Assembly (NCBI RefSeq): GCF_022538185.1
Contig: NZ_JAKYXC010000002.1
Location: forward strand, 310,001 to 374,000
DNA length: 64,000 bases
From: Microbacterium sp. CFH 31415
GTDB lineage: Bacteria > Actinomycetota > Actinomycetes > Actinomycetales > Microbacteriaceae
Direction: 5' to 3'
Both the position numbers and the translations under genes were made by a program. The notes beneath the pieces were generated by a model. The model worked only from the letters and a program-made list of their open reading frames with translations. It ran no database searches and was not told the DNA's origin. Below, one piece after another: positions 3,495-37,890 of the stretch. Position 1 is the first letter of the stretch, and each line of letters opens with the position of its first letter.

Positions 3495-4340
3495 TCAGGA
3501 GGCGGACTCGAGTGCGCGGCGCATCGCCGTGACGACGGCGCCCTCGTCGGGGAGCGGGGTGTCGACGGCGCCGGTGGCGAAGATCCTCACCTGAAGGACG
3601 GCCTGATGCAGCAGCATCCCGAGCCCCGACACCGCCGCGGTGCCGGCACGCTGCCATGCCGCGGACAGCGTCGTGGGCCAGTGCCCGTACACGACGTCGA
3701 AGAGGAGCCCTCCGGCGGCCGCGAACGCGTCGGCCGCGGCATCCGCCACCGGTGCATCTCCGGGGAGCGTGGCGATCGTCACGGGAACGGTCGGGAGAGC
3801 GGATGCCTCGAACGGCGTCGTGGTGACGTCGATGTCCAGTCGGCGACCGAGATCGGCGAGTCGCGCCACGGCTTCGGGTCGCCGGGCGACGACGTCGATC
3901 CGTGTCGCGCCGAGCTCGGCGAGGGCCACGAGCCCGGAGGTAGCGGTCGCTCCGGCGCCGATGATCCGGGCCTCGTCGAGGCGGGTGATCCCCTCCTCAG
4001 CCAGGGCACGGACGATCCCTCCGACGTCGGTGTTGAATCCGCGGGCGGCTCCGCCCGCCAGCAGCAGGGTGTTGACGGCGCCGGTCAGCTCGGCGCGCCG
4101 GTCGAGCTCGTGTGCGGCGTCGTGGGCGACCTTCTTGAGCGGCATGGTCAACGACAGACCCCGCCACGAAGCGTCGAGGCCGGCGAGCTCCCCCGCGAAC
4201 GCGCTGTCGTCCACCCGGCGGCGGCCGTACGACCACGGCAGCCCGAGCACCTCGTACGCCGCGGTGTGGAGCTGGGGCGATCGGCTGTGCGCGATCGGGT
4301 CGCCCCACACCTCGAGGCGAGAGGCGTTCGAGCTCAGCAC
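3495..4340 (-). CDS. aroE: Shikimate dehydrogenase
   Basis: AroE reduces 3-dehydroshikimate to shikimate with NADPH. The substrate loop reads GDPIAHSRSPQLHTAAYEVLG; the lysine of LTMPLKK corresponds to the catalytic lysine; GAVNTLLLAGG precedes an NADP-binding fold starting IIGAGATATSGLVAL. The frame is open upstream without family similarity, so I place the start at GTG 4340, giving 281 residues and a seven-base overlap with mltG. The glycine in GDPIAHS replaces the more usual asparagine. The gene continues the alaS-ruvX-mltG run. Confidence 0.93.
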   Translation of the reverse strand: MLSSNASRLEVWGDPIAHSRSPQLHTAAYEVLGLPWSYGRRRVDDSAFAGELAGLDASWRGLSLTMPLKKVAHDAAHELDRRAELTGAVNTLLLAGGAARGFNTDVGGIVRALAEEGITRLDEARIIGAGATATSGLVALAELGATRIDVVARRPEAVARLADLGRRLDIDVTTTPFEASALPTVPVTIATLPGDAPVADAAADAFAAAGGLLFDVVYGHWPTTLSAAWQRAGTAAVSGLGMLLHQAVLQVRIFATGAVDTPLPDEGAVVTAMRRALESAS

Positions 4341-6070
4341 CCGGAGTCCGGGTGATCCTCGCACCAGGCGATCCACTGCGCGACGGCGCGGTTGTGATCG
4401 CCGAGGTTCGTCGTGAACACCGTCTCGCCGGTGTCGAGGTTGACCGTCACGAAGTACATCCAATCGCCGCCCGACGGATTCATGACGGCCGAGATCGCCG
4501 CGTCGCCCGGATTGGAGATCGGTCCGACAGGCAGTCCGGCGTTGACGTAGGTGTTCCACGGGTTCGGATCGAACTGCGCCTCCTCGGAGGTGCTCGCCGA
4601 CCCGTCGTGCATCTCGCCGAAGCCGTACTGGGCGGTCGAGTCCATCTGCAGCAGACCGAAGGTCTCCTGATTGTCCGGGTCGAGCCGGTTCTCGATGACC
4701 GTGGCGACCTTCTGCATGTCAGCCTCGTACCGTGCTTCGCGCTCGATGATCGAGGCGACCGTCAGCACGCGCTGACGATCCTCTTCGGGAACCCCCGCAG
4801 CATCGAGCGACTGCACCGTGCGGTCGACGAGTGTCTGGATGACCTGCTCGGCCGTGACGTCGGGGTTGAATGTGTAGGTGGCCGGGAACAGCCAGCCTTC
4901 CAGCGGCTGCCCGCCCGCCGCCACGACCGCGGGATCGGGCGTGACGCCGTAGGCGGACGCGTCGGCTGTCGCGGCCACGAAGTCCTCGACGGGGAGGCCG
5001 GTGCCCTCGGCCAGGAGCGGCAGGGACTGCTCGACGGTGAGACCCTCGCGCAGCTGGGCGGTGTTCTCCATCTTGTTCGCCGGATCGAGCAGCGCCGCCA
5101 GCGCCGCCTCCGACGTCATCTGCAGCTGCAGTTTGAAGACGCCTGGGACGAACGGCGGGTTCTCGCCCGTGTCGATGAGGTAGTCGTAGAACGCGTTCGG
5201 CGTCATCGTGACGCCCGCGTCGAACAACGCCTGCGAGATCGGCATGCCGGTGTCGCCCTCGTTGATGGTGACGTACGCCTCGCCGTTCGCGAGGCCCTCC
5301 TCGAAGTCCTTGGGCAGCTCCCAGCCCATCACCTCGCGGACCTTGTCCTCGTACGTCGTCCAGACGTACCAGGCGCCACCCGCCACGCCGCCGATGATCA
5401 GCAAGATCACGCCGAGGGCGATCCAGCCGCCGATGCGCCGCTTGCGCTTGTCTTTGGGCGGCGGCACGCTGCCGAGGTCATCGCTCGAGCTGTGGCCGCT
5501 GAAAAGGTCTTCCAGCGTCGCAGGCGAGGTGGCGCGCGCGCTGGCGGCGGTCACCCGTTCCCCGAACGCCTCGGTCGGGTCGACGGGCGAGCCTGAGGAG
5601 GCGGGGGCGATCGGGGTAGCCCCGGTGCGGCTGTACGGCAGCGCGGGCTCGGCGTCGCCCGCGAGCATCCAGGAGTCGTCGTCGACCGGATCGGCGGGGC
5701 GGGGCGTGTAGGCGCGGGGCTGCGCGAGCACGCCCGACCCATCGGTGACGGCCTCGCGCTGCGCCGAGCGCGGCATCGCCGCAGTCGGCCCCGCGTCGAC
5801 GGCCGTCTGAGCCGGCGACTCGTCGGCCGGCGCGCCCGCACGACGCGCCGCCGCGCTCAGGCCGGCGGCTGCCGCACGCAGCTCGCGGCGCGACAGCGGC
5901 GCTCCGGTCGCCGGGCGTGCGGGACCCTGTGCCCCGTCCTCCTCGCCACCGTCGCCCGCGCGTGAGCCGAAGCCGGCGTCATCGCCGGAGCGCCGGAAAT
6001 CGCGCGACCGAGGGTCGGGAAGCTGGCCGAACAGATCCGCGAACGGATCTCCAGACGGGGTCTCGGGCAT
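4334..6070 (-). CDS. mltG: Endolytic murein transglycosylase MltG with long cytoplasmic N-terminal region
   Basis: MltG cleaves nascent glycan strands at the membrane and so sets their length. The 578-residue protein has a low-complexity, acidic and proline/alanine-rich cytoplasmic region (about 1-205), a basic KDKRKRR stretch, one transmembrane helix (about 213-238) and a YceG/MltG domain. The catalytic region reads VASIIEREARYEADMQKVA, with the expected glutamate, followed by MDSTAQYGFG and GLPVGPISNPG. Translation starts at ATG 6070 (MPETPSGDPF), two bases after the ruvX stop. The cytoplasmic region is much longer than in the E. coli enzyme; extended versions occur in actinobacteria. Confidence 0.93.
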   Translation of the reverse strand: MPETPSGDPFADLFGQLPDPRSRDFRRSGDDAGFGSRAGDGGEEDGAQGPARPATGAPLSRRELRAAAAGLSAAARRAGAPADESPAQTAVDAGPTAAMPRSAQREAVTDGSGVLAQPRAYTPRPADPVDDDSWMLAGDAEPALPYSRTGATPIAPASSGSPVDPTEAFGERVTAASARATSPATLEDLFSGHSSSDDLGSVPPPKDKRKRRIGGWIALGVILLIIGGVAGGAWYVWTTYEDKVREVMGWELPKDFEEGLANGEAYVTINEGDTGMPISQALFDAGVTMTPNAFYDYLIDTGENPPFVPGVFKLQLQMTSEAALAALLDPANKMENTAQLREGLTVEQSLPLLAEGTGLPVEDFVAATADASAYGVTPDPAVVAAGGQPLEGWLFPATYTFNPDVTAEQVIQTLVDRTVQSLDAAGVPEEDRQRVLTVASIIEREARYEADMQKVATVIENRLDPDNQETFGLLQMDSTAQYGFGEMHDGSASTSEEAQFDPNPWNTYVNAGLPVGPISNPGDAAISAVMNPSGGDWMYFVTVNLDTGETVFTTNLGDHNRAVAQWIAWCEDHPDSGC

Positions 6071-6071
6071 G

Positions 6072-6539
6072 TCAGGCGGGCTCCTGGTGGACGGGTGTTC
6101 CGGGTGGTCGGCCGGTGCTCTTCTCGACGTCGAGTGCTTGCTGGAGCAGCACGACCGCGGCGACCTGATCCACAATGCTACGAGACGAACGCTGGGATCG
6201 GCCCGAATCACGCAGTGCGGCATGCGCGGAAACCGTCGACAGGCGCTCGTCGACGAGCCGCACCGGCACAGCGGATGCCGCGGCCACCGCCGCGGCGAAG
6301 TCCCGGGCATCGGCAGTCGAGGCGGTGTCCTCGCCGCGCAGATTGAGCGGCAGACCGACCAGGATCTCGGCCGCCGAGTACTCCTCCGCCAGCGCTGCGA
6401 CGCGCGCCACAGCGCCGACGTCTCGCTTCACCGTCTCGACGGGGGTGGCGAGCAGCCCGTCGGGATCGCAGCGCGCGACGCCGACTCGCGCCCTCCCGAC
6501 GTCGATGCCGAGCCGCACCCCGCGACGGAATCCGCTCAC
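6072..6539 (-). CDS. ruvX: RuvX/YqgF-type putative Holliday junction resolvase
   Basis: YqgF-family nuclease with an RNase H fold, linked to Holliday junction resolution and to 16S rRNA 5'-end processing. The product has 155 residues and starts at GTG 6539. The first catalytic aspartate lies in RLGIDVGRARVGVA; the conserved GLPLNLRGE, RLVDERLS and the final aspartate of SIVDQVAAVVLLQ follow. Its GTG overlaps the alaS stop (GTGA), and mltG begins immediately after it. The alaS-ruvX-mltG order is typical of actinobacteria. Confidence 0.94.
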   Translation of the reverse strand: MSGFRRGVRLGIDVGRARVGVARCDPDGLLATPVETVKRDVGAVARVAALAEEYSAAEILVGLPLNLRGEDTASTADARDFAAAVAAASAVPVRLVDERLSTVSAHAALRDSGRSQRSSRSIVDQVAAVVLLQQALDVEKSTGRPPGTPVHQEPA

Positions 6540-9193
6540 GCGCTGAGCGCGTCCTTCACCGCGGTGAGCGCAGCGGACAGCGCCGAGGCATCCGTCCCAC
6601 CGCCCTGGGCGACATCGTCGCGTCCGCCGCCGCCGCCGCCGAGCACTCCGGCCGCGGTCTTCGCGAGCACGCCGGCCTTCACGCCCGCGGCGCGTGCGGC
6701 GTCGTTCGTGGCGACGATGACCACCGCGCGACCGCCGATCTCCGCGCCGAGCGCGACGACCGCAGGCTGGGCGCCGAGGCGCTCGCGCACCTGGAGGGCA
6801 AGGGAGCGAACGTCGTCCGCGGACGACGCGGCGCCGAGCGACTCCGCGACAACGAGATGGCCGCCGATCGTCGACGCGGAGCGCGCGAGGGCCGGGATGC
6901 GGTCGCCGAGGGCCTTGGCCTCGAAGGAGGCGATCTTCTTCTCGGCGGCCTTGAGGCTCGCGGTCAGCTCGGCGATGCGCGCAGGGAGCTGGTCGCGGGG
7001 CGTCTTGAGCGTCGAGGTGAGCTGCGACACGATGGCCCGCTCGGCCGCGAGCGACCGGAACGCGTCGAGACCGACGAGCGCCTCCACGCGGCGGTTCGCG
7101 GCCCCGACGGACGACTCCCCGACCAGGCTGATGAGGCCGACCTCGGCACTCGTCGACACGTGCGTTCCCGCGCAGAGCTCGCGCGACCACGGACCGCCGA
7201 TGTCGACCATGCGCACGGTGTCGCCGTACTTCTCGCCGAACAGCGCCATGGCGCCGAGCGACTTGGCCTCGTCGAGCGCGAGCACACGGGTGGTCACCTC
7301 GAGGTTGTCGCGCACCGCGTTGTTGGCGATCTCCTCGATCTCGCTCTTGGTCTCGTCGGAGAGCGACTGCCCCCACGTGAAGTCGAAGCGCATGTAGCCG
7401 GCGCGGTTGAGCGAGCCCGCCTGCGTCGCCGTCTTGCCGAGCGTGTCGCGCAGAGCGGCGTGCACGAGGTGGGTGGCCGAGTGGGCCTGCCGTGCGGCCC
7501 GGCGGTTCACGGCGTCCACCACCGTCGTCGCCGGCTGGTCGACGGCGACCTCACCGGTCGTCACCTCGACGGTGTGGCTGATGAGTCCCGCGACGGGCTT
7601 CTGCACGTCGAGCACCTCGAGCTCGTAGCCCGGACCGACGATGACGCCCTTGTCGGCGACCTGGCCGCCCGATTCCGCGTAGAGGGCCGTCTCGGCGAGG
7701 ATGACCTCGGCGATCTGTCCCGCGGAGGCACGATCGACGGCCATGCCGTCGACGAGGATGCCCAGAACACGCGACTCGGTCTCGAGATCGGTGTAGCCCG
7801 TGAAGACCGTCTCGCCCTTCGCGCGGAACTCGCGGTAGACGCTGGTGTCGGCGAGCTGGCGCTTGCGGGAACGCGCGTCGGCCTTCGCCCGCGCGCGCTG
7901 CTCCTGCATCAGCGTGTCGAACGCCGCGCGGTCGACGGTGAGCCCGGCCTCTTCGGCGATCTCCAGGGTGAGATCGATCGGGAACCCGTACGTGTCGTGC
8001 AGGAGGAACGCCTCGGCGCCCGTGAGCGCGGTGCCGCCGTCGCGCTTCGTCTGCGCGACGGAGTCCTCGAGGATGCTCGAACCCGCCGCGAGCGTGCGCA
8101 GGAAGGTCTCCTCCTCAGCCAGCGCGTACTGCGAGATGCGGGCGTAGTCGGCCTCCACCTCGGGATAGACGTCCTTCATCGCGTCGCGCGATGCGGCGAA
8201 GAGCTCGGCGAACGTCGGGCCCTCGACGCCGAGCTGGCGCATCGAGCGGATCGCGCGGCGCATGAGCCGCCGCAGGATGTAGCCGCGCCCGTCGTTGGAG
8301 GGCGTCACACCGTCGGACATCAGCATGAGCGACGAGCGCACGTGGTCGGCGACCACGCGGAAGCGCACGTCGTCGTCGTGGTTCGCGCCGTAGGTGCGAC
8401 CCGAGAGGGCGACGGCACGGTCGAGCACCGGGCGCACCTGGTCGGTCTCGTACATGTTGTCGACGCCCTGCTTGATGAACGCGATGCGCTCCAGGCCCAT
8501 GCCGGTGTCGATGTTCTTGTTCGGCAGCTCGCCGACGATGTCGAAGTCGTACTTCGAGCGCACGTTGGTGATCTCGTACTGCATGAAGACGAGATTCCAG
8601 ATCTCGACATAGCGGTCGTCGTCGGTGGCCGGGCCGCCGTCGGCGCCGTACGCGGGACCGCGGTCGAAGAAGATCTCGGAGCAGGGTCCGGCAGGGCCGG
8701 GCAGACCGGTGCTCCAGTAGTTCGTGTCCTTGCCGAGCCGCTGGATGCGCTCTTCGGGCAGGTCCGTGAGCTCCAGCCAGAGGTCGTGCGCCTCATCGTC
8801 CTCTTCGTAGACGGTGACCCAGAGGTCCTTCGGGTCGAACCCGAGACCGCCGTCTGCCTCGGACGAGGTCAGCAGATCCCACGCGTACCGGATGGCGCCC
8901 TCTTTGAAGTAGTCGCCGAACGACCAGTTGCCGAGCATCTGGAAGAACGTGCCGTGGCGCGGCGTCTTGCCGACCTCTTCGATGTCGTTGAGACGGATGC
9001 ACTTCTGGTTGTCGGCCGCACGCGGGTAAGGCGCGGGGACGTCGCCGCTCAGGTAGGGGATGAACGGCACCATGCCGGCGACCGTGAACAGCAGCGCAGG
9101 GTCGTCCGTCACCAGAGAGGCGGAGGGGACGATCGTGTGGCCGTTCTTCTCGAAGTAGTCGAGGTAGCGCTGAGCGATCTCGGCGGTCTTCAT
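6536..9193 (-). CDS. alaS: Alanyl-tRNA synthetase
   Basis: Charges tRNA-Ala and edits mischarged Ser and Gly. The 885-residue protein has the full architecture: an N-terminal class II catalytic domain, the editing domain with HSATHLVHA and the zinc-site cysteine/histidine in CAGTHVSTSAEVG, a coiled-coil linker, and a C-terminal C-Ala domain with a glycine-rich stretch (GGGGGGRDD). The frame is open upstream, but ATG 9193 gives the canonical N-terminus MKTAEIAQRYLDYFEKNGH. It heads the ruvX-mltG-aro run and is 61 bases downstream of a small YtxH-like gene. Confidence 0.97.
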   Translation of the reverse strand: MKTAEIAQRYLDYFEKNGHTIVPSASLVTDDPALLFTVAGMVPFIPYLSGDVPAPYPRAADNQKCIRLNDIEEVGKTPRHGTFFQMLGNWSFGDYFKEGAIRYAWDLLTSSEADGGLGFDPKDLWVTVYEEDDEAHDLWLELTDLPEERIQRLGKDTNYWSTGLPGPAGPCSEIFFDRGPAYGADGGPATDDDRYVEIWNLVFMQYEITNVRSKYDFDIVGELPNKNIDTGMGLERIAFIKQGVDNMYETDQVRPVLDRAVALSGRTYGANHDDDVRFRVVADHVRSSLMLMSDGVTPSNDGRGYILRRLMRRAIRSMRQLGVEGPTFAELFAASRDAMKDVYPEVEADYARISQYALAEEETFLRTLAAGSSILEDSVAQTKRDGGTALTGAEAFLLHDTYGFPIDLTLEIAEEAGLTVDRAAFDTLMQEQRARAKADARSRKRQLADTSVYREFRAKGETVFTGYTDLETESRVLGILVDGMAVDRASAGQIAEVILAETALYAESGGQVADKGVIVGPGYELEVLDVQKPVAGLISHTVEVTTGEVAVDQPATTVVDAVNRRAARQAHSATHLVHAALRDTLGKTATQAGSLNRAGYMRFDFTWGQSLSDETKSEIEEIANNAVRDNLEVTTRVLALDEAKSLGAMALFGEKYGDTVRMVDIGGPWSRELCAGTHVSTSAEVGLISLVGESSVGAANRRVEALVGLDAFRSLAAERAIVSQLTSTLKTPRDQLPARIAELTASLKAAEKKIASFEAKALGDRIPALARSASTIGGHLVVAESLGAASSADDVRSLALQVRERLGAQPAVVALGAEIGGRAVVIVATNDAARAAGVKAGVLAKTAAGVLGGGGGGRDDVAQGGGTDASALSAALTAVKDALSA

Positions 9194-20250: not shown

Positions 20251-21279
20251 TTATAGGTCATCGAAGTCGAGCACCGATTCGACGGGCCGGGCGCCCAGGT
20301 GAGCATATGCCTCAGGTGTCGCGACGCGCCCTCGGGGGGTCCTCCCCATGAATCCGATCCGCACCAGGTAGGGCTCGACGACCGACTCGATGGTCTCCGC
20401 CTCCTCCCCGACCGCGACCGCCAGCGTGCCGAGCCCAACCGGGCCGCCGCGGAACCGTCGCACGACCGCGTCCAGCACGGCACGGTCGAGCCGGTCGAGG
20501 CCGATCGAGTCCACGTCGTACAGGTCGAGCGCGGCGTCGACGAGCGCTGTGTCGGCCGCCTCGCCGTCGCCGTGGACGATCAGGTAGTCGCGCACGCGGC
20601 GCAGCAGGCGATTCGCTATGCGGGGCGTGCCGCGCGAACGGCGCGCGATCTCGGCGCGGGCTTCAGGTGGCACCGAGACGCCGAGCATGACCGCCGACCG
20701 CGCGATGACCTGCTCGAGCTCTTCGGGCTCGTAGTACTCGAGGTGAGCGGTGAAGCCGAAGCGGTCGCGGAGCGGGTTCGGCAGCAAGCCGGAGCGCGTG
20801 GTCGCGCCGACCAGGGTGAACGGCGCGAGATCGAGCGGGATGCTGGTCGCGCCGGCGCCCTTGCCCACCATGATGTCGATGCGGAAGTCCTCCATGGCGA
20901 GGTACAGCATCTCTTCGGCCGAACGGGCCATGCGGTGGATCTCGTCGATGAACAGCACTTCGCCCGGAGTGAGGCTCGACAGGAGTGCTGCGAGATCGCC
21001 GGCGTGCTGAATGGCGGGTCCGCTCGAGAGACGCAGCGGGCGCGCGCTCTCGTGGGCGACGATCATCGCGAGGGTCGTCTTGCCGAGACCGGGCGGACCG
21101 GACAGCAGGATGTGGTCGGGCGGACGCTGCTGGATGCGCGCGGCGTCGAGCAGCAGCTGAAGCTGGCCGCGCACCTTCTGCTGTCCGACGAACTCCGAGA
21201 GGGAGGCCGGGCGCAGCGCACCCTCGATCGCCAGCTCGGTCTCGTCGACGGGCTCGGCGGCGTCTCGGAAGTCATCCAC
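20251..21279 (-). CDS. ruvB: Holliday junction branch migration helicase RuvB
   Basis: AAA+ motor of the RuvAB branch-migration complex. In the 342-residue protein Walker A is GPPGLGKT (61-68), Walker B is LFIDEIH (109-115), the sensor is GATTRSG, and the C-terminal winged helix contains [17 protein letters not shown], a typical RuvB ending. It overlaps ruvA by eight bases. The ruvC-ruvA-ruvB order matches other actinobacteria. Confidence 0.97.
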
Positions 21280-31095: not shown

Positions 31096-31125
31096 AAAAC
31101 GCGAAAACCCCCGGCATGCGGGGGT
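31096..31125 (-). terminator. Terminator of the Gly-Cys-Val tRNA cluster
   Basis: On the minus strand a seven-base G/C stem (arms 31107-31113 and 31119-31125, ACCCCCG/CGGGGGT) is followed by TTTT and a second TTTT. This is a clear intrinsic terminator just past tRNA-Val(GAC). Confidence 0.8.
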
Positions 31126-31136
31126 CTTCCGGGTGG

Positions 31137-31208
31137 TGCGCGATACTGGGATCGAACCAGTGACCTCTTCCGTGTCAGGGAAGCGCGCTACCGCTGCGCC
31201 AATCGCGC
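31137..31208 (-). tRNA. tRNA-Val (GAC)
   Basis: A cloverleaf on the minus strand: acceptor GCGCGAT pairs with ATCGCGC, the D-arm is GGCGCAGCGGTAGCGC, the anticodon loop within CTTCC-CTGACAC-GGAAG gives anticodon GAC, and the T-arm contains GGTTCGATCC. CCA is encoded (31134-31136 as TGG on the plus strand). It reads valine codons GUC and GUU. Confidence 0.95.
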
Positions 31209-31234
31209 CTGTACAGGCTATTCAGTTCGAGTGG

Positions 31235-31305
31235 AGGTGGCGACGGGATTCGAACCCGTGTAAACGGCTTTGCAGGCCGGTGCCTAGCCGCTCGGCCACG
31301 CCACC
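31235..31305 (-). tRNA. tRNA-Cys (GCA)
   Basis: Minus-strand cloverleaf with acceptor GGTGGCG/CGCCACC, a U discriminator as usual for Cys, anticodon GCA in the loop of GGCCTGCAAAGCC, and T-loop GTTCGAATC. CCA is encoded at 31232-31234. Confidence 0.95.
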
Positions 31306-31361
31306 GCGTGTGGTTTGACCCCACGTGCCGTGGCCTCCCGGTGAGAAGGCCCCTGCACTCG

Positions 31362-31434
31362 AGCGGATGACGAGACTCGAACTCGCGACCCTCACCTTGG
31401 CAAGGTGATGCGCTACCAACTGCGCTACATCCGC
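31362..31434 (-). tRNA. tRNA-Gly (GCC)
   Basis: Minus-strand cloverleaf: acceptor GCGGATG/CATCCGC, D-arm GTAGCGCAGTTGGTAGCGC, anticodon loop of CACCTTGCCAAGGTG giving GCC, and T-loop GTTCGAGTC. The CCA end is not encoded. It heads the three-gene tRNA cluster. Confidence 0.95.
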
Positions 31435-31557
31435 ATTTCGTTCCCGGATTCTCACCCGGGCACTTGAAGAACTTTATCCCACGAACGGCGGAGCGCCAAA
31501 CCGAGCGCGACCCGCGCGTGTCTCACATTCCGGTCTCGGGCACCCTCCCGTATCCGG

Positions 31558-31563
31558 TAGTAT
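31558..31563 (+). promoter_or_regulatory. -10 element of tRNA-Val(CAC)
   Basis: TAGTAT lies 24 bases before the mature 5' end of the plus-strand tRNA-Val. A matching -35 is not obvious. Confidence 0.45.
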
Positions 31564-31587
31564 CGACTCTCGGCCCCTCGGGGCAGC

Positions 31588-31660
31588 GGGCGATTGGCGC
31601 AGTTGGTAGCGCGCTTCCTTCACACGGAAGAGGTCATCAGTTCGAGTCTGGTATCGCCCA
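31588..31660 (+). tRNA. tRNA-Val (CAC), integration target
   Basis: Plus-strand cloverleaf with acceptor GGGCGAT/ATCGCCC, D-arm GGCGCAGTTGGTAGCGC, anticodon loop TTCACAC giving CAC, and T-loop AGTTCGAGTC. CCA is not encoded. The 3' half from 31615 is repeated exactly at 34692-34740, so this gene is the attachment site of the element to its right and remains intact. Confidence 0.95.
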
Positions 31661-31663
31661 CCG
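31615..31663 (+). repeat. Left attachment site (49-bp direct repeat copy 1)
   Basis: Runs from the anticodon stem of tRNA-Val(CAC) three bases past its 3' end. It is identical to 34692-34740; identity stops at C versus T on the left and G versus A on the right. Confidence 0.9.
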
Positions 31664-31665
31664 GA

Positions 31666-31709
31666 AAGAGGCCCGGAATCACGCGGAAGTCGCGGATTCC
31701 GGGCCTCTT
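31666..31709 (+). terminator. Terminator supplied by the element for tRNA-Val(CAC)
   Basis: A perfect 15-bp inverted repeat (31666-31680 and 31695-31709, AAGAGGCCCGGAATC and its complement) with a 14-base loop begins six bases after the tRNA. A T-containing stretch follows. It lies inside the element, so it replaces the original chromosomal terminator now found past the right repeat. Confidence 0.75.
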
Positions 31710-31720
31710 GCTTTGCCCGC

Positions 31721-32104
31721 TCAGGCCGGTTGTGTGTGCGGTGTGTGTGACGATGCCCTCGGAATCATCGCTGAGACGCGCTCTGCGTGCACCCGGTCGG
31801 CGTCGCCGACGCGCGCCACGTAGAGGTCAGCGGTGATGCGGCTCGTCGAGTGGCCGAGCCGTTTCGACAGCTGCGTGACGTCTCCCCCGCCCGCGATCCA
31901 GAGTGACGCGTGTTCATGCCGCGCGCCGTGCAGCGTGATCTTCGGGAGCCCCGCGCGCTTGCGGAGCGTCTCAAACAGGCGCGTCGCGTAGTCGGGCTTC
32001 ACGGGCTCGCCGTTCTCCATGGTGAAGACATAGCCCGTGTCGGTCCACGCTTCGCCCCAGAGCTCCCGCTCGCTGTCCTGCCGCAGCCGCCAGCTGAGCA
32101 GTGC
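31721..32104 (-). pseudogene. Tyrosine recombinase (integrase), C-terminal fragment
   Basis: About 127 residues of a phage-type integrase catalytic domain remain, from LLSWRLRQDSERELWGEAW to the stop at 31721. HGARHEHASLW holds the His and Arg of the active site, LGHSTSRITADLYVA holds the second His and the tyrosine nucleophile, and TDTGYVFTMENGEPVKPDYAT is typical of actinobacterial integrases. The N-terminal arm-binding and core-binding domains and the first catalytic Arg are missing. Upstream of residue LLSW the frame runs antisense into the ImmA fragment, so a deletion joined the two genes. Confidence 0.85.
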
Positions 32105-32105
32105 A

Positions 32106-32606
32106 CCGATTCGTTTCACTCTCGCGCACGAGCTCGGCCATCTTGTGCTCCACTCCTTCCGCCAGTCGGCGGATCCGGAGACGGAGGCGCACCTGTTTGC
32201 GGGCGCGTTCCTCGTTCCCGACTCTCGCGCGGCCGAACTGATTCCACCAGACTCGACGCTGCAGCAGCTCGCGCGGGTGAAAGCTGGTTGGGGCGTCTCG
32301 ATCGCCGCGCTGGTGAAACGGGGCGAGGCAGCCGGCACGATCGACAAAGACCGCGTCTCGACGCTCTACCGTCAAATCTCGTCTCGCGGATGGCGCAAGG
32401 AGGAGCCCGTGCACGTTGGCGCAGAGACGCCGCGCCTGCTGTTCCGCCTCCTTCAAGATCGCTATGGCGAGAACCCCTACGCTGCTGAGCGCATCGAGCA
32501 CGAGCTCGCATTCCCGGTCATGACCCTTCGCGCGCTCGCGCCCGCTCCTGCCGCAGTCGGTAGGTCGACCACCTCACGCCCGGTTGCGCAGTTGCGGGCG
32601 CTATGA
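32106..32606 (+). pseudogene. ImmA/IrrE-type metallopeptidase, N-terminally truncated
   Basis: Family similarity begins abruptly at RFTLAHELGHLVLHS, which contains the zinc motif HExxH, followed by EAHLFAGAFLVPDS with the third-ligand region and a C-terminal GWGVSIAALVKRG helix-turn-helix-like segment, as in ImmA/IrrE proteins. About 166 residues remain; the first part of the domain is missing at the junction with the integrase fragment. In integrative elements ImmA cleaves the repressor ImmR to trigger excision. No start codon or repressor gene is left, so it is unlikely to work. Confidence 0.8.
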
Positions 32607-32723
32607 CATCGACAGGATCGGCGTCAGGAGCTCGTGTCGCAAGTCCTGCTGGATCGAGAATGCGGCCAACGTGACGATTCTGGCGAGCCGCACCGGGTAT
32701 GGATGGACCGACAACCCCTGTTC

Positions 32724-33931
32724 TCAATAGAAGAGGATCGAGGCCTCTTGCGCCGCGCTGATGGCGTTGAGCTTCACGAAGAACGAGCCGGTATATCCGG
32801 ACGCGCATCCGAAGCCGAAGTGCTGGCCGTGGGCGACGGCGTAACCCGTCACCGATTGGGTTGTGAGCCAGGGGCCGCCCGAATCGCCGTGGTCGGTGTA
32901 GTGCTGATTCATGAGGACACCGCTCATGCCGGAGTAGGTTGTACCCGCGCACGAGGGCAGGGTGTAAGTCGGCATCTTCACGGTCGCGACGGTGAGACCG
33001 GTGGTTCGTCCGCTCATCGCGACGGAATCGCCCGCGCCCCAGGCGGTGTCGATCGCGACTACGCGACGGACGACGTTCGTCGTCTGGTTGCCGACAAAAA
33101 CCGTGGGCGAGTAGGAGGTCCCGCTCATGATGGCTGAGTCGACGCCCGGCTTCGACTGGAACACTGTGCCGACATACGTGCCGTTGTTATACCAGCTGAC
33201 ATCGATGCAGTGTCGGGCTGTCGAGCCTACGATTTGCCCCGAACCCCAGCGCTTCCACGTAAACCCTAGGTGCATCCGTAGTTAGCGGAATCAATAGCTG
33301 CGCCGGCCGTGTACGGCTGGTAGTCGTCCACGCGGCTCTCGGGTGCCCACCCTTCCACCGGCTCGATTCGCTCAAGAACGACCCTGGGGTCGTCGAGATT
33401 CTCGATGGCACGAATGAGGATCGGGGCGTCCTTGAAATTCGGGTCAACCTGCAGCAACACCCGGTTGCTCGCCGGATCATGACCCCCGCCGATGCCAGTG
33501 GCTCCGGCCCACTCCTTCTGATGCTCGAGCAACCTGGCCGCGAGTTCGTCGAGCTCGCGCTGTGAATACTCAACTCGCTCAAATTCCGTGGCGAGAGGGG
33601 TCGCGGACGCGGAAACGATCTTCCGGGCCTGCTCCAGGGCGGCGTCAGAAGTCATCCGAACGGTCAGCACTCCAGAATCGCCGTCCCAGAGGAGCCCGCC
33701 GTCGTACTCCACCAGTGGCGCAAGCAGCGACCGCAACCGATCGCGTTCGGCCGACTGGTCAGCGTCGCCGGTCAGATCGGCAGGAAGAGGGTCCTGGTCG
33801 GGTGGTGTCTCTTTGCCGTCGTCCACGGAACGGGGCGCTGTGCGCTCCTCGGCGAACGCGACGTTGGTCGAGCCGGCGACGAAGAGCCCGATTGCGAGAA
33901 GACCGACGACGCCAAGAAGACTCCGCTGCAT
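32724..33931 (-). pseudogene. Streptogrisin/alpha-lytic-type secreted serine protease, split by one frameshift
   Basis: The first frame (33931 to 33266) encodes a signal peptide (about 1-27, ending VAFA), a pro-region and the start of the mature enzyme (YQPYTAGAAIDSANYGCT). The second frame (33275 to 32724) continues LGFTWKRWGSG and carries the triad: His in STARHC, Asp in GVDSAIM and Ser in DHGDSGGPWL. One extra G in the GG at 33269-33270 would fuse both into an S1-family pro-protease of about 400 residues. It is cargo of the integrative element and divergent from the lipoprotein gene, 24 bases away. The shift may be a real mutation or a base-call error. Confidence 0.8.
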
Positions 33932-33955
33932 TTTCGCATGCTATGGTGCGCCGTC

Positions 33956-34384
33956 ATGAGGGCGCAATGGAGATCGTTTGGCACGGTGAGTGGTGCTGTA
34001 CTGATCACCCTGGTTGCCGCGGGCTGCACTTCCGTTTCCCCGCCTGACCCCACCCCGACCGGGGACGAGATCCGGATTGTCACGAGTAACCAGACCGAAC
34101 CGACCGGCATGGAGGTTCAGCTCACCGCAGACCTAGTCATCGGCGACAAGGGGTGTGTCCAGGCGGAGACCGCGGGCGGCACCGTGAATCTTGTGTGGCC
34201 TAGCGGATACACCGTCCACGGGGACAGCCAGGCGTTCACCGTCCTGAACGCCGACGGGGACGCCGTCGCCGCATCAGGGTCCACCGTGACAATGACCGGT
34301 GGGCCTGGTGACGAGGTCGACGCGGCATGGGCCAACGCTGATTGCATCGATGGTGAGCCTTGGATGGTCGGCGCCGCCAAGTGA
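33956..34384 (+). CDS. Putative lipoprotein of unknown function
   Basis: A 142-residue protein with a lipoprotein signal: N-terminal RAQWR, a hydrophobic segment and the lipobox VAAGC with Cys24 as the acylation site. A Pro/Thr linker (PPDPTPTGDE) leads to a beta-rich domain with two further cysteines (GDKGC, NADC). No known family is recognised. The start at ATG 33956 is preferred over an ATG 18 bases upstream because it fits the signal peptide. It diverges from the protease with only 24 bases between starts, so the promoters overlap and the two may work together outside the cell. Confidence 0.65.
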   Translation: MRAQWRSFGTVSGAVLITLVAAGCTSVSPPDPTPTGDEIRIVTSNQTEPTGMEVQLTADLVIGDKGCVQAETAGGTVNLVWPSGYTVHGDSQAFTVLNADGDAVAASGSTVTMTGGPGDEVDAAWANADCIDGEPWMVGAAK

Positions 34385-34691
34385 TGCTGGAGAGCGGGTC
34401 CGAACCGGTGGTCCCCATTTCGACCATCGCCTGGCGGCTAATCATCAGCACTTGCCGCGCTCATCGACCAGTCGATGACCAAACGCGCGCGAGCGCCCGT
34501 TCGACCGGTCGAAGCGAAACCCGCGCGGGCGCGGGCGCAGGTACGGCACGACCGGCGCTGTGTGCGCGTGTGTGTGCGGACGGGATGGGATGGTTTGGGA
34601 TGCGTTGGGACGGCGCGTGCTGCCGATGCTACTGGGCACCGAGATTCCGGGCTTTCTGGGGACGAGATGGGACCCGTTGGGACGGTCTTCT
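34385..34691. other. Non-coding right end of the integrative element with phased TGGGA repeats
   Basis: No convincing gene is seen here. TGGGA starts at 34586, 34596 and 34606, and again at 34668 and 34678, every time exactly 10 bp apart. CGTTGGGACGG occurs twice (34603-34613 and 34675-34685). The 11-mer TGTGTGTGCGG (34569-34579) and the 10-mer GATTCCGGGC (34643-34652) also occur near the left end (31731-31741 and 31695-31704). These look like recombinase or excisionase arm-binding sites beside the right attachment site. Confidence 0.55.
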
Positions 34692-34740
34692 TTCCTTCAC
34701 ACGGAAGAGGTCATCAGTTCGAGTCTGGTATCGCCCACCG
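34692..34740 (+). repeat. Right attachment site (49-bp direct repeat copy 2)
   Basis: Exact copy of 31615-31663, that is, the tRNA-Val(CAC) 3' half without its 5' half. It marks the right boundary of the integrated element. Confidence 0.9.
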
Positions 34741-34745
34741 AAATG

Positions 34746-34767
34746 CCCCCGCTCCGGCGGGGGTTTT
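34746..34767 (+). terminator. Original tRNA-Val terminator, displaced by the integration
   Basis: CCCCCGC/GCGGGGG arms (34746-34752 and 34757-34763) with a four-base loop are followed by TTTT. It lies six bases past the right repeat, where the tRNA terminator would have been before integration. Confidence 0.75.
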
Positions 34768-35041
34768 CCGTTGTCGGAGCCCTCGACAGAGCCGGTCGTC
34801 CCGACCGTGTCCCGTACGCGAACCCTCTGACCGGGATCCGCACGAGATGGTGGCGCCGGATGAGGATGCTCTCACGCCTCGGCGAATGTGAGCGGTAACG
34901 CGATAGCGTGGCCATCAATCCGCTCCCCTGCGGATCTCCGGTCGACACGGTGGTCGCCACTGCGACGAGTCTTGACTCGCCGTGCACGACGCCCGCGTCG
35001 GACCAGGCGACGTTCCAGAACCGTCCGGAAAGAGGGCACCG

Positions 35042-37267
35042 ATGCCACAGATCCCATCCCCCACCTCGCCGAACCGAACACCGAGCCGCCGAGTCACGGC
35101 CCGCCTCCTGTCGCTGGCGACGACCGGCGCGCTGGGCGTCGCCATGCTCGCCGCGACCCCCGCGATGGCCCAGATCCCCGAGACCTCGTCTCCGCCTGAC
35201 GCCGCCGCTGTCACGGCGGCGGAGCAAGAAGCGCCGGAGCAGGAGTACGAACGCTACGTCTTCGCGTCGTTCCACGGCGGCGATGACGGCGGCAGGAACG
35301 GCGAGCAGATCTGGATCAGCGCATCCAAGGGGAACGACCCCCTGAACTGGTACGAGCTCAACTACGACGAGGGGACGTCGGTGTCACAGCCGATCCTCCA
35401 GACGGTCAACCCGCCCCAGGGGCAGATGGGCCTGCGCGACCCGTCACTCATCCGCTCGGCGGACGGTGAGAGCTTCTTCCTCCTCGCGACCGACCTGAAG
35501 ACCTACCAGGACGGCCAGTCGTGGTCGTACCGCCAGTCGAAGGGCTCGCGGAACCTCGTGGTCTACGAATCCGACGACCTCGTCAACTGGTCGGAGCCCC
35601 GCTTCATCAAGGTCGAGGACGATCACGCCGGCAACGTCTGGGCGCCGGAGGCCTTCTATGACGAGAAGAACGAGCAGTACATCGTCTTCTGGGCGTCGAA
35701 CCTCTACCCCGACGAGAACATCGAGAGCCGCAACACGTCGCAGATCTCGTACAACCGCATCCGCGTGGCCACGACCAAGGACTTCGTGACCTTCAGCGAG
35801 CCGACGACCTGGGTCAACCTCGATCGTTCCACCGGCCGCCAGGGCTGGGGCATGATCGACTCGACGATGATCGCGACGGATGACCGGATCTACCGTCTCA
35901 CCAAGGACGAGAACGGCTTCCGGGTGCTGCTGCAGTACATCGACTCGCTCGACGACCTGTACGACACGTGGGGCGCGGAGGAGACCACCCCGTACGTGAC
36001 GAACCGCAACCCCATCACGCCGCTGACCGAGAACCCCAACGCGTGGACGATGGTGGGCAACCCCAACGGCTCGAGCAAGTGGCAGATCCCGGGTCTCTCC
36101 GGCGGCAACCTCGAGGGACCACTCGTCTTCAAGGACAACGTCGAGGACAAGTGGTATGTCTTCATCGACTACGCCTCCGGTGGCGGCTACGTCGCGTGGC
36201 GTGCGGATTCGATGGACACGCCGCCGAACGAGTGGGAGTACCTCGGCCAGTCGTGGTGCAACACCACCGGCCTCTCCAGCTCGTGCAATGCCCGATCGGA
36301 GACGTCGCCGCACTGGTCGCTGCCCGTCAGCCCGCGCCATGGCTCGGTGCTTCCCGTCACGCTCGAGGAGTGGGAGGGCGTCATGGCCCACTACAACTCC
36401 CCCGTGCATGTCGAGGCGTCGGTCGTCGATGAGAGCGGTGCGGCCGTCGAGGAGGACGCCTGGCTGAACGAGGCGCCCCACCTCGAGGTGGACTGGACCG
36501 ACTTCAACGACACCGGTCTCTCGCCGGCATGGCTGCGGCTGGTCGAAGGCCACAACGACGGCCCCCGTGTCGTCGCAGCCGACACGATCACCGACATCTC
36601 TCGGGGCATGACCGTGCCCGTCAATGCCGTGGAGGGGACGAACTGGGCGCAGCTCGAGTATCGGGATGCCTCGCTCGGCGGCGACGCGGTCATGCTGTGG
36701 ACGACCGACGTGGCGTACAAGCTGGACACGACAGCGCCCGACGTCGACGTCCAGGTGGACGGCTGGGACGTCGCCGTCTCGGCGACTGACCCGCTTCCCG
36801 CCGGTGTCGCGGAGAACTCGGGCATCGCCACCTGCGAGCTGCGCGTCGACGAGGGCGAGTGGGCCGATTGCGAAGCCACGTCGACGCTGGAGCCGTCGAT
36901 CGTCGACCGCACCGCCACGGTCCGGGCGACCGACAACGCGGGGAACGAGAGCACCGAGACCGCCGTGGTCGAGGGCTCCGGTCTCGTCTCGACCTCGATC
37001 GACACCCGGTGCGTCGGCTCGAAGGTGATGCTCATCGTCACGGTGACCAACATCGAGGACGCACGTGTCTCGTCCACGGTGACGACCACGTACGGATCGC
37101 GCCCGGTGCCGTCGCTGGGTGCGGACAAGAGCCGCTCGCAGGCCTTCGCCACCCGCCTCGAGAGCATCCCGGCCGGTTCCGTGGAGATCACGAGCACGGC
37201 GACGATCGGCGGTGAGACGATCACCGTGGAGGACGTCATCGACTACTCCGCGTCGACCTGCGGCTGA
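35042..37267 (+). CDS. Secreted glycoside hydrolase, GH43-like, with beta-sandwich C-terminus
   Basis: A 741-residue exported protein. The signal peptide (about 1-43) has twin arginines (SRRVTARLL) and ends AMA. Residues about 68-410 read as a five-bladed propeller with GH43 landmarks: LRDPSLIRS (acid at 133) and VWAPEAFYD (glutamate at 203). The C-terminal 300 residues look like immunoglobulin-type domains (VRATDNAGNESTETAVVEG). No sortase motif is present, so the protein is probably released. GH43 enzymes cut arabinose- or xylose-containing polysaccharides; the substrate is not determinable. ATG 35042 follows AAAGAGGG at a good distance. Confidence 0.82.
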   Translation: MPQIPSPTSPNRTPSRRVTARLLSLATTGALGVAMLAATPAMAQIPETSSPPDAAAVTAAEQEAPEQEYERYVFASFHGGDDGGRNGEQIWISASKGNDPLNWYELNYDEGTSVSQPILQTVNPPQGQMGLRDPSLIRSADGESFFLLATDLKTYQDGQSWSYRQSKGSRNLVVYESDDLVNWSEPRFIKVEDDHAGNVWAPEAFYDEKNEQYIVFWASNLYPDENIESRNTSQISYNRIRVATTKDFVTFSEPTTWVNLDRSTGRQGWGMIDSTMIATDDRIYRLTKDENGFRVLLQYIDSLDDLYDTWGAEETTPYVTNRNPITPLTENPNAWTMVGNPNGSSKWQIPGLSGGNLEGPLVFKDNVEDKWYVFIDYASGGGYVAWRADSMDTPPNEWEYLGQSWCNTTGLSSSCNARSETSPHWSLPVSPRHGSVLPVTLEEWEGVMAHYNSPVHVEASVVDESGAAVEEDAWLNEAPHLEVDWTDFNDTGLSPAWLRLVEGHNDGPRVVAADTITDISRGMTVPVNAVEGTNWAQLEYRDASLGGDAVMLWTTDVAYKLDTTAPDVDVQVDGWDVAVSATDPLPAGVAENSGIATCELRVDEGEWADCEATSTLEPSIVDRTATVRATDNAGNESTETAVVEGSGLVSTSIDTRCVGSKVMLIVTVTNIEDARVSSTVTTTYGSRPVPSLGADKSRSQAFATRLESIPAGSVEITSTATIGGETITVEDVIDYSASTCG

Positions 37268-37362: not shown

Positions 37363-37890
37363 CTACGCCGTGGCGCCTTCCGCGCCCCAGCCGTAGCGGC
37401 TGCCGAGCGCCGCGGCCACGCGGGCGAAGCGGTCCGGCTCGAGGACGGACGCCTCGCGCCGCATGCCGGCCCGGTGGACGCGGTAGATCTGCTCGATGTC
37501 GACCCAGGACGGCCGACCTCGCGCATCCCACGATCCCGAGCCGAGCGCGAGATAGTCGCGGTCGCCGTCGTGGGATTTGCTCGTGAGCCGGACGGCGTAC
37601 ACCCAGTCGTGGTCCTCGCGTGCGATCACGAGCACAGGCCGATCCTTGCCGCGTCCGTCACGCTCGTCGTACGGCACCCAGGTCCAGATGATCTCGCCCG
37701 CGTCCGGCTCGCCGTCGACATCCGGGAGATAGCTGATGTGCAGGCCGCCCGGTGCCGGAGGCACGATCTCGACGGTGGCGGTGTCTCCGAACCGGCCGGG
37801 CTCATCGCCTTCGACGTCGGAGGGCCGTGTGCTCGCCCCTGCCGAATGGAAGAGCTGCGCGAATCGGCTGAGCAGGCGGGATTGCGTCAC
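37363..37890 (-). CDS. PemK/MazF family toxin-like protein, no adjacent antitoxin
   Basis: A 175-residue protein whose C-terminal two thirds match the PemK/MazF fold: GEIIWTWVPYDERDGRGKDRPVLVIA, then VYAVRLTSKSHDGDRDYLALGSGSWD and a final helix. MazF-type toxins are mRNA endonucleases; the basic GKDRPVLV segment is conserved. No small antitoxin gene is found on either side, so this is an orphan of the long actinobacterial group. TAGGGT six bases before the GTG start indicates a leaderless transcript. Confidence 0.8.
   Translation of the reverse strand: MTQSRLLSRFAQLFHSAGASTRPSDVEGDEPGRFGDTATVEIVPPAPGGLHISYLPDVDGEPDAGEIIWTWVPYDERDGRGKDRPVLVIAREDHDWVYAVRLTSKSHDGDRDYLALGSGSWDARGRPSWVDIEQIYRVHRAGMRREASVLEPDRFARVAAALGSRYGWGAEGATA

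Follow-up and report, generated by a model that had tools for sequence, protein, structure and literature searches.

A decayed element at tRNA-Val(CAC) of Microbacterium sp. CFH 31415 with a protease-lipoprotein gene pair that recurs in other actinobacterial mobile elements

The closest described systems are summarised here as given in the available parts of the respective papers. Decayed actinomycete integrative and conjugative elements (AICEs) that retain a partial integrase, cargo, and two repeats have been described in Streptomyces, and the AICE sites named there include a tRNA-Val gene (PMC9513070). An S1/S6 chymotrypsin-type peptidase has been named as cargo of a Frankia AICE (PMC3218068). 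The C10 proteases of Bacteroides are exported and encoded beside small staphostatin-like inhibitor genes, some of whose products are predicted lipoproteins. Mobile elements carry two of these protease genes, in one case at a tRNA gene, and the bfp3 prophage is reported as not the one with the coupled inhibitor (PMC2873492, PMC3462683). The Mtz-Tim locus of Listeria is phage-derived, carries XRE regulators, and encodes a secreted protease with a lipoprotein partner (PMC8235301). In this work, we have analysed a 64-kb stretch of DNA from Microbacterium sp. CFH 31415 (the window; bases 310001-374000 of a 640-kb contig in a 3.46-Mb draft assembly of 21 contigs). At tRNA-Val(CAC), about 3.0 kb of DNA between two copies of the tRNA end holds fragments of an integrase gene and an ImmA/IrrE-type gene, two protease open reading frames (ORFs), and a lipoprotein ORF.

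We consider it reasonably probable that the surviving cargo of this internally deleted, tRNA-integrated remnant is a two-gene module of a secreted protease and a surface-anchored partner, that the module is recurrent cargo of actinobacterial elements, and that the partner binds the protease as an inhibitor or immunity partner or is its target. The pair is read as a travelling module and not as random debris because related pairs ride other actinobacterial mobile elements. The features of the locus (window positions) are as follows.

31588-31662, + strand: whole tRNA-Val(CAC), the target gene of the element (ARAGORN; match in 58/58 relatives searched)
31615-31663, + strand: left attachment-site copy, the 3' part of the tRNA (49-bp exact repeat)
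31721-32110, - strand: tyrosine integrase remnant, C-terminal part only (PF00589, 2.6e-9; match to the G137 integrase)
32088-32606, + strand: ImmA/IrrE-type repressor remnant, C-terminal part only (PF06114, Peptidase_M78, 1.2e-11; phrog_2439, 1.2e-31)
32724-33275, - strand: catalytic domain of a predicted secreted chymotrypsin-fold serine protease with the His/Asp/Ser triad present (ORF; homology to G086; triad columns; PF00089 at 0.0016, below the cut-off)
33266-33931, - strand: predicted signal peptide and pro-region that belong to this protease but lie in a different frame, a frameshift (ORF; 62% identical to the N-terminal portion of the G086 protease, which is intact)
33938-34384, + strand: predicted lipoprotein partner of 148 aa, apparently intact and divergent from the protease (ORF; 39% identity to the G086 partner; lipobox read by eye)
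34582-34686, + strand: GGGATG / TTGGGACGG motifs that recur inside the right border and may be integrase arm-type sites (from the sequence)
34692-34740, + strand: right attachment-site copy (49-bp exact repeat)
34745-34764, + strand: terminator-like G/C-stem hairpin, moved away from the tRNA by the insertion (adjoins the tRNA in relatives)

An earlier note on this DNA, made from the sequence alone, had proposed an element inserted at tRNA-Val(CAC) between 49-bp exact repeats, and had suggested that relatives be searched for empty sites where the tRNA is followed by the G/C-stem terminator. The longest exact repeat at the locus is indeed 49 bp (31615-31663 = 34692-34740; another repeat scan gave 52 nt at 98%), so that the 3' end of the tRNA is directly repeated at the two borders, as in tRNA-targeted integrative elements. 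A chance origin of the repeat was rejected since its length is far beyond chance. A second functional tRNA-Val, called by ARAGORN at 34660-34739, was also rejected; there the 3' repeat is joined to unrelated 5' sequence, and the call is best read as the attachment-site copy. Terminator-like sites are not in excess (2 counted against a shuffle mean of 1.8), so the placement of the hairpin directly after the tRNA copy is the telling part. The G+C content is 65.0% in the interior of the element and 63.8% in the protease-lipoprotein pair, against 69.5% in the window.

A 111-base query around the tRNA matched all 58 relatives searched, and 29 of these were read as loci. An empty site was defined as the right flank of the window running on from the tRNA for at least 24 bases past the tRNA end. 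Such sites, with the hairpin adjoining the tRNA, are present in 12/29 relatives (G012, G034, G024, G030, G008, G019, G017, G023, G031, G006, G001, and G026), which bears out both the proposed insertion and the suggested check. In G012, window positions 31103-31666 (89%), 34692-34766 (93%), and 37377-37496 (79%) align to a single unbroken stretch. In the remaining 17 relatives, the sequence diverges at the tRNA end or shortly past it, or other DNA is present. Because other DNA occupies the site in further relatives, tRNA-Val(CAC) is taken as a repeatedly used integration site. In G032, the tRNA end recurs after 6.1 kb and the DNA between the two copies holds integrase and RepSA-like genes, G010 has a second copy 1.9 kb on, and an integrase relative faces tRNA-Val(CAC) in G191. 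The 6.1-kb AICE-like element of G032 (L059) also has its own, unrelated lipoprotein ORF (4238-4795). Beside the element in the window, an exported-looking protein of 761 aa without a Pfam match is encoded at 34982-37267 (+), between the displaced tRNA terminator and a conserved gene (37363-37890). This gene is read as a second insertion or gain, since in G012 no more than about 30 bases separate the tRNA terminator from the conserved gene.

The integrase fragment shares 56% identity over 128 aa with residues 289-416 of the G137 integrase (431 aa), and the ImmA/IrrE-type fragment aligns to positions 190-350 of 367 in the phrog_2439 profile. Since both homologies end within 32088-32110, a single deletion took the fronts of both genes and the DNA between them. 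Next to the border only the C-terminal part of an integrase gene is left, and the element is called a remnant for this reason. The Pfam scan found no Rep (RepSA/RepAM/Prim-Pol) or FtsK-type Tra gene among the five element ORFs. Relatives of the integrase (E 1e-10) are present in 12/198 genomes, this genome counted. Eight of these 12 loci were scanned, and a tRNA lies beside the integrase in five of them (Pro three times, Tyr, and Val(CAC)); the relative in G114 is in a region with a terminase gene. Given these neighbours and the combination of a tyrosine integrase with an ImmA/IrrE-type repressor, the ancestor was phage-, satellite- or integrative and conjugative element (ICE)-like. None of seven proteins scanned matched the PADLOC models of anti-phage defence.

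The recurrence of the pair was examined at 13 protease-family loci that score above 100 bits with the protease profile, seven of which were used in building that profile. A partner gene is found within 1 kb at six of these 13 loci. The protease and partner genes are divergent in the window and in G086, convergent in the first copy of G706 (Jiangella) and in Jiangella muralis DSM 45357 (L115), and on the same strand in the second G706 copy (partner then protease) and in G210 (protease then lipoprotein, with tentative homology). At a further G706 locus, the partner gene is beside a protease fragment (L138:16678-17466). Homology of the partners was tested with profiles built from one group only, and 13,041 translated segments were searched. 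The profile of the window and G086 partners finds those of J. muralis (6.3e-10), the G706 fragment locus (1.9e-9), and the first (7.4e-8) and second (0.0058) G706 copies. In the other direction, the window partner is recovered by the Jiangella profile with 1.9e-10 (hhalign 97.1%, 5.8e-11). At five loci, each confirmed independently, the two genes are neighbours, and three gene orders occur among these loci. Both Jiangella genes are distant relatives of those in the window.

Four of the six pair loci, the window counted, are in recognisable elements. G086 carries the intact divergent pair in an element at tRNA-Met with an integrase (PF00589, 3e-19), Fic (1.9e-18), and a TrwC (MobF) relaxase (2.3e-30); the candidate right ends, about 12.1 and 10.9 kb downstream, repeat 24 and 22 bp of the tRNA-Met end. 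These right-end-like copies (L022:2427-2448 and 3654-3677) are about 1.2 kb apart, and two copies of such similarity suggest two tandem elements. In J. muralis, the pair is inside an AICE at tRNA-Pro(GGG) (tRNA at 20409-20485, 44-bp exact end copy at 7635-7678) that holds the genes expected of an AICE, namely an integrase (7.9e-24), RepSA (1.8e-144), and an FtsK-type gene (1.2e-6). A second tyrosine integrase gene (L115:6050-7228) is just outside this AICE, beside the 44-bp far end, possibly by accretion of another element. In G706, the first copy of the pair is in a type IV secretion system (T4SS)-type element with the order M23 peptidase, SCO6880 (5.5e-136), pair, VirB4-like ATPase (which scores below the curated cut-off), TraG coupling protein, single-stranded DNA-binding protein, serine recombinase, and ComM-like gene. 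The search for the pair in other elements that the earlier note had suggested thus found it in three of them.

The earlier note had named a secreted serine protease gene and a divergent lipoprotein gene as the survivors of the element. Both are present and the lipoprotein gene is intact, but the protease frame is broken. The pro-region and catalytic ORFs are in different frames with an overlap of 10 bases, while the homologue in G086 is a 412-aa protein in a single open frame, about 71-72% identical in the catalytic domain. With its protease frame broken, the module in this genome is presumably inactive. His248, Asp272, and Ser361 (G086 numbering) are invariant in 7/7 aligned proteins, and the triad is aligned with that of 2pfe (E 0.02). 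Single family members score below the Pfam cut-offs. A profile of three members of the family, with the window protein left out, matches SFase-2 (2sfa, 2.6e-8), 2pfe (3.8e-6), alpha-lytic protease (1qq4, 7.1e-5), and streptogrisin B (1sgd, 8.8e-4) in the PDB. Judged by its sequence, the protein is a streptogrisin/alpha-lytic-like protease of S1 (chymotrypsin-fold) type.

The protease was found in 2/260 Microbacterium genomes (this one and G086). The pair being core genes, which the earlier note had set out as an outcome against its proposal, was rejected on this count. Wider counts are 3/396 for the order, 3/249 for the family, 3/12 for Jiangella, and 1/24 for the family of G210. In the class, 14/394 genomes have a match at 1e-10, the weaker ones being general S1 proteases. 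Where the genome at the centre of a search, or members known beforehand, had been drawn into the sample, they are included in the count. In tblastn searches, the window catalytic ORF had no match in plasmids or phages, the G086 protease none in plasmids, and the G706 protease none in phages; the latter had two weak Streptomyces matches in plasmids (at most 70% of the query, about 27% identity). The window lipoprotein had no match in phages and the G706 partner none in plasmids by the same method. No relative was found among viral contigs. A first scan of the genome contigs for the pro-region gave 0/21 candidates, and a second scan gave one locus, that of J. muralis.

The start codons of the protease and lipoprotein genes are six bases apart in the window (24 with the second ATG) and 11 in G086. 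A putative lipobox Cys was read by eye in the window and G086 partners, for which membrane anchoring is predicted. The lipoprotein is found in 9/198 genomes of the genus at 1e-3, strongly only in this genome and G086 (6.9e-25); the other seven are at 4e-5 to 8e-4. Between the window and G086, codon positions 1/2/3 differ by 20/19/50% in the catalytic domain (182 codons, 71% identical residues) and by 42/42/68% in the lipoprotein (142 codons, 39% identical residues). The largest differences are at third codon positions, so both genes were under protein-level constraint. No Pfam family matches the partner domain, and its profile has no reliable match in the PDB (best 0.0047, no single stretch passing alone). 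It was found in 6/9 genomes with 1-4 matches each, 15 in total. Six of seven solo proteins with the domain were read. Four are encoded directly behind sigma-70-like genes; the remaining two are further lipoproteins of this genome, and no protease was seen in their vicinity. Because of these solo copies, the partner domain is a general extracytoplasmic module, previously undescribed, that is a neighbour of the protease in the mobile pairs. At L140, L143, L144, and L145 (Jiangella genomes and G210), it makes up the outer portion of membrane proteins whose genes directly follow the sigma-70-like genes.

Several points weigh against the reading of a mobile two-gene module. The second G706 copy and G210 (2/6 pair loci) show no recognised element. 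Seven of the 13 protease-family loci have no partner within 1 kb (G318, G1020, G1076, G687, a broken G086 copy, and two G706 copies without catalytic residues), and the family as always paired was rejected on this basis. The adjacent lipoprotein of G210 is unconfirmed as a homologue (independent profiles 0.24, 0.058, and 1.2e-4 in a 13-protein set; hhalign 1%); it had been among the sequences building the profile that first counted it as one. The J. muralis partner, read from its ATG, is without an evident membrane anchor. The paired proteases do not form one clade in a tree of whole-length alignments, which includes the partial window protein and was used only for this non-grouping. The AlphaFold2 models of the catalytic domain and the lipoprotein have mean predicted local distance difference test (pLDDT) values of 28.0 and 33.9, too low for use. 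The partner domain also occurs protease-free, as the outer domain of membrane proteins behind extracytoplasmic function (ECF) sigma factors. Among the partnerless loci, the two G706 paralogues (L111:3805-5079 and 5416-6672) are in tandem, lack the catalytic His and Ser motifs, and are two kb from the intact pair. At the end of contig 12 of G086 (L023:8660-11121), an ECF-type sigma gene, a membrane protein gene, and the frame-broken protease paralogue are in a row, adjoining a transposase-like ORF.

If the two proteins act together, the exported protease would act extracellularly on proteins of the envelope or of neighbours, and the partner on the membrane of the producer would bind it as an inhibitor or immunity partner, or be its regulated target. 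We tentatively favour inhibition or immunity over the roles of substrate and sensor because the protease, with a pro-region of its own, has little need of a folding helper, and because the cotransfer of such an exported enzyme to new hosts calls for protection. It is somewhat unlikely that the partner is instead a substrate, where the protease would cut the anchored lipoprotein and the released domain would act on the envelope. The same layout of a mobile origin, a secreted protease, and a lipoprotein is found in Mtz-Tim, for which the available text reports cleavage and release (PMC8235301), and the faster divergence of the partner than of the catalytic domain (39% against 71% identity) is what a linker-bearing target might show; however, the protease families of the two systems differ. 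A sensor or regulator, with an extracytoplasmic signalling domain borrowed from ECF-sigma-linked membrane proteins and the protease as its effector, appears improbable. The solo copies behind sigma-70-like genes (four of the six looked at) and the ECF-type sigma gene that adjoins the broken G086 paralogue agree with it, but no sigma factor gene is next to the paired copies in the regions read. The solo domain behind ECF sigma genes fits a sensor as well as an inhibitor. The inhibitor or immunity role could extend to conjugation, as one Jiangella element has the pair within its T4SS gene cluster, which suggests that the pair is involved in the transfer process. The protease would then act on the envelope of recipients or competitors while the anchored partner protects the host of the element, a proposal that we regard as unlikely at present.

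It is scarcely credible that the two genes have nothing to do with each other and came along as hitchhikers within recombination debris. The remnant state, the broken protease, and the many solo family members would suit such debris, yet the domain is scarce in the genomes where it was found and is still beside the protease at the five confirmed loci in three gene orders, and chance adjacency is about 0.001 per locus by simple arithmetic. It is also highly unlikely that the protease in this genome is functional after all, through an assembly error or a programmed frameshift. The draft state of the assembly and the otherwise conserved triad and pro-region would allow this, but the only close relative (G086) has the protease in one open frame, the adjacent integrase and repressor genes are plainly decayed, and no slippery heptamer is evident by eye.

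The literature searches found no report of this protease-lipoprotein pair. The suggestion of the earlier note that such a pair is not described as mobile cargo holds at most for these two proteins and within those searches, since analogous cargo of a protease with an anchored partner, from other protease families, is in print in the available text of PMC8235301 and PMC2873492. Compared with the decayed Streptomyces AICEs, the present remnant has no surviving transfer or replication gene and its cargo differs; a word search of the available text of PMC9513070 gave no protease or lipoprotein cargo. The Frankia AICE peptidase is likened to the present protease by description, and no partner gene is mentioned for it in the available part of that paper (PMC3218068). 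The protease is similar to the streptogrisins and alpha-lytic protease (S1) in its pro-region, His-Asp-Ser triad, and GDSGGP motif, but it is distant from them, with Pfam Trypsin (PF00089) at only 0.0016 and a conserved AHGQH-type motif after the catalytic Ser. The C10 enzymes of Bacteroides, as described in the parts available, are cysteine proteases from another phylum with another inhibitor family. The pair resembles Mtz-Tim of Listeria in combining a protease with a lipoprotein partner; by the description in the available text (PMC8235301), Mtz-Tim consists of a metzincin metalloprotease and a TIMP-like partner with tim directly after mtz, whereas no metzincin HEXXH motif and TIMP-like partner are found here, the protease being of S1 type. 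The cargo of actinobacterial integrative elements is mostly unnamed, and this pair is a concrete module with an undescribed partner domain. Its two genes have remained neighbours in bacteria that are far apart, although their order varies, and are carried by an AICE, a mobilizable element, and a T4SS-type element. Inhibition of the protease by the partner would make this a new family of protease inhibitors and an immunity-like system. Release of the partner by the protease would make it a second, unrelated case of the principle known from Mtz-Tim of Listeria.

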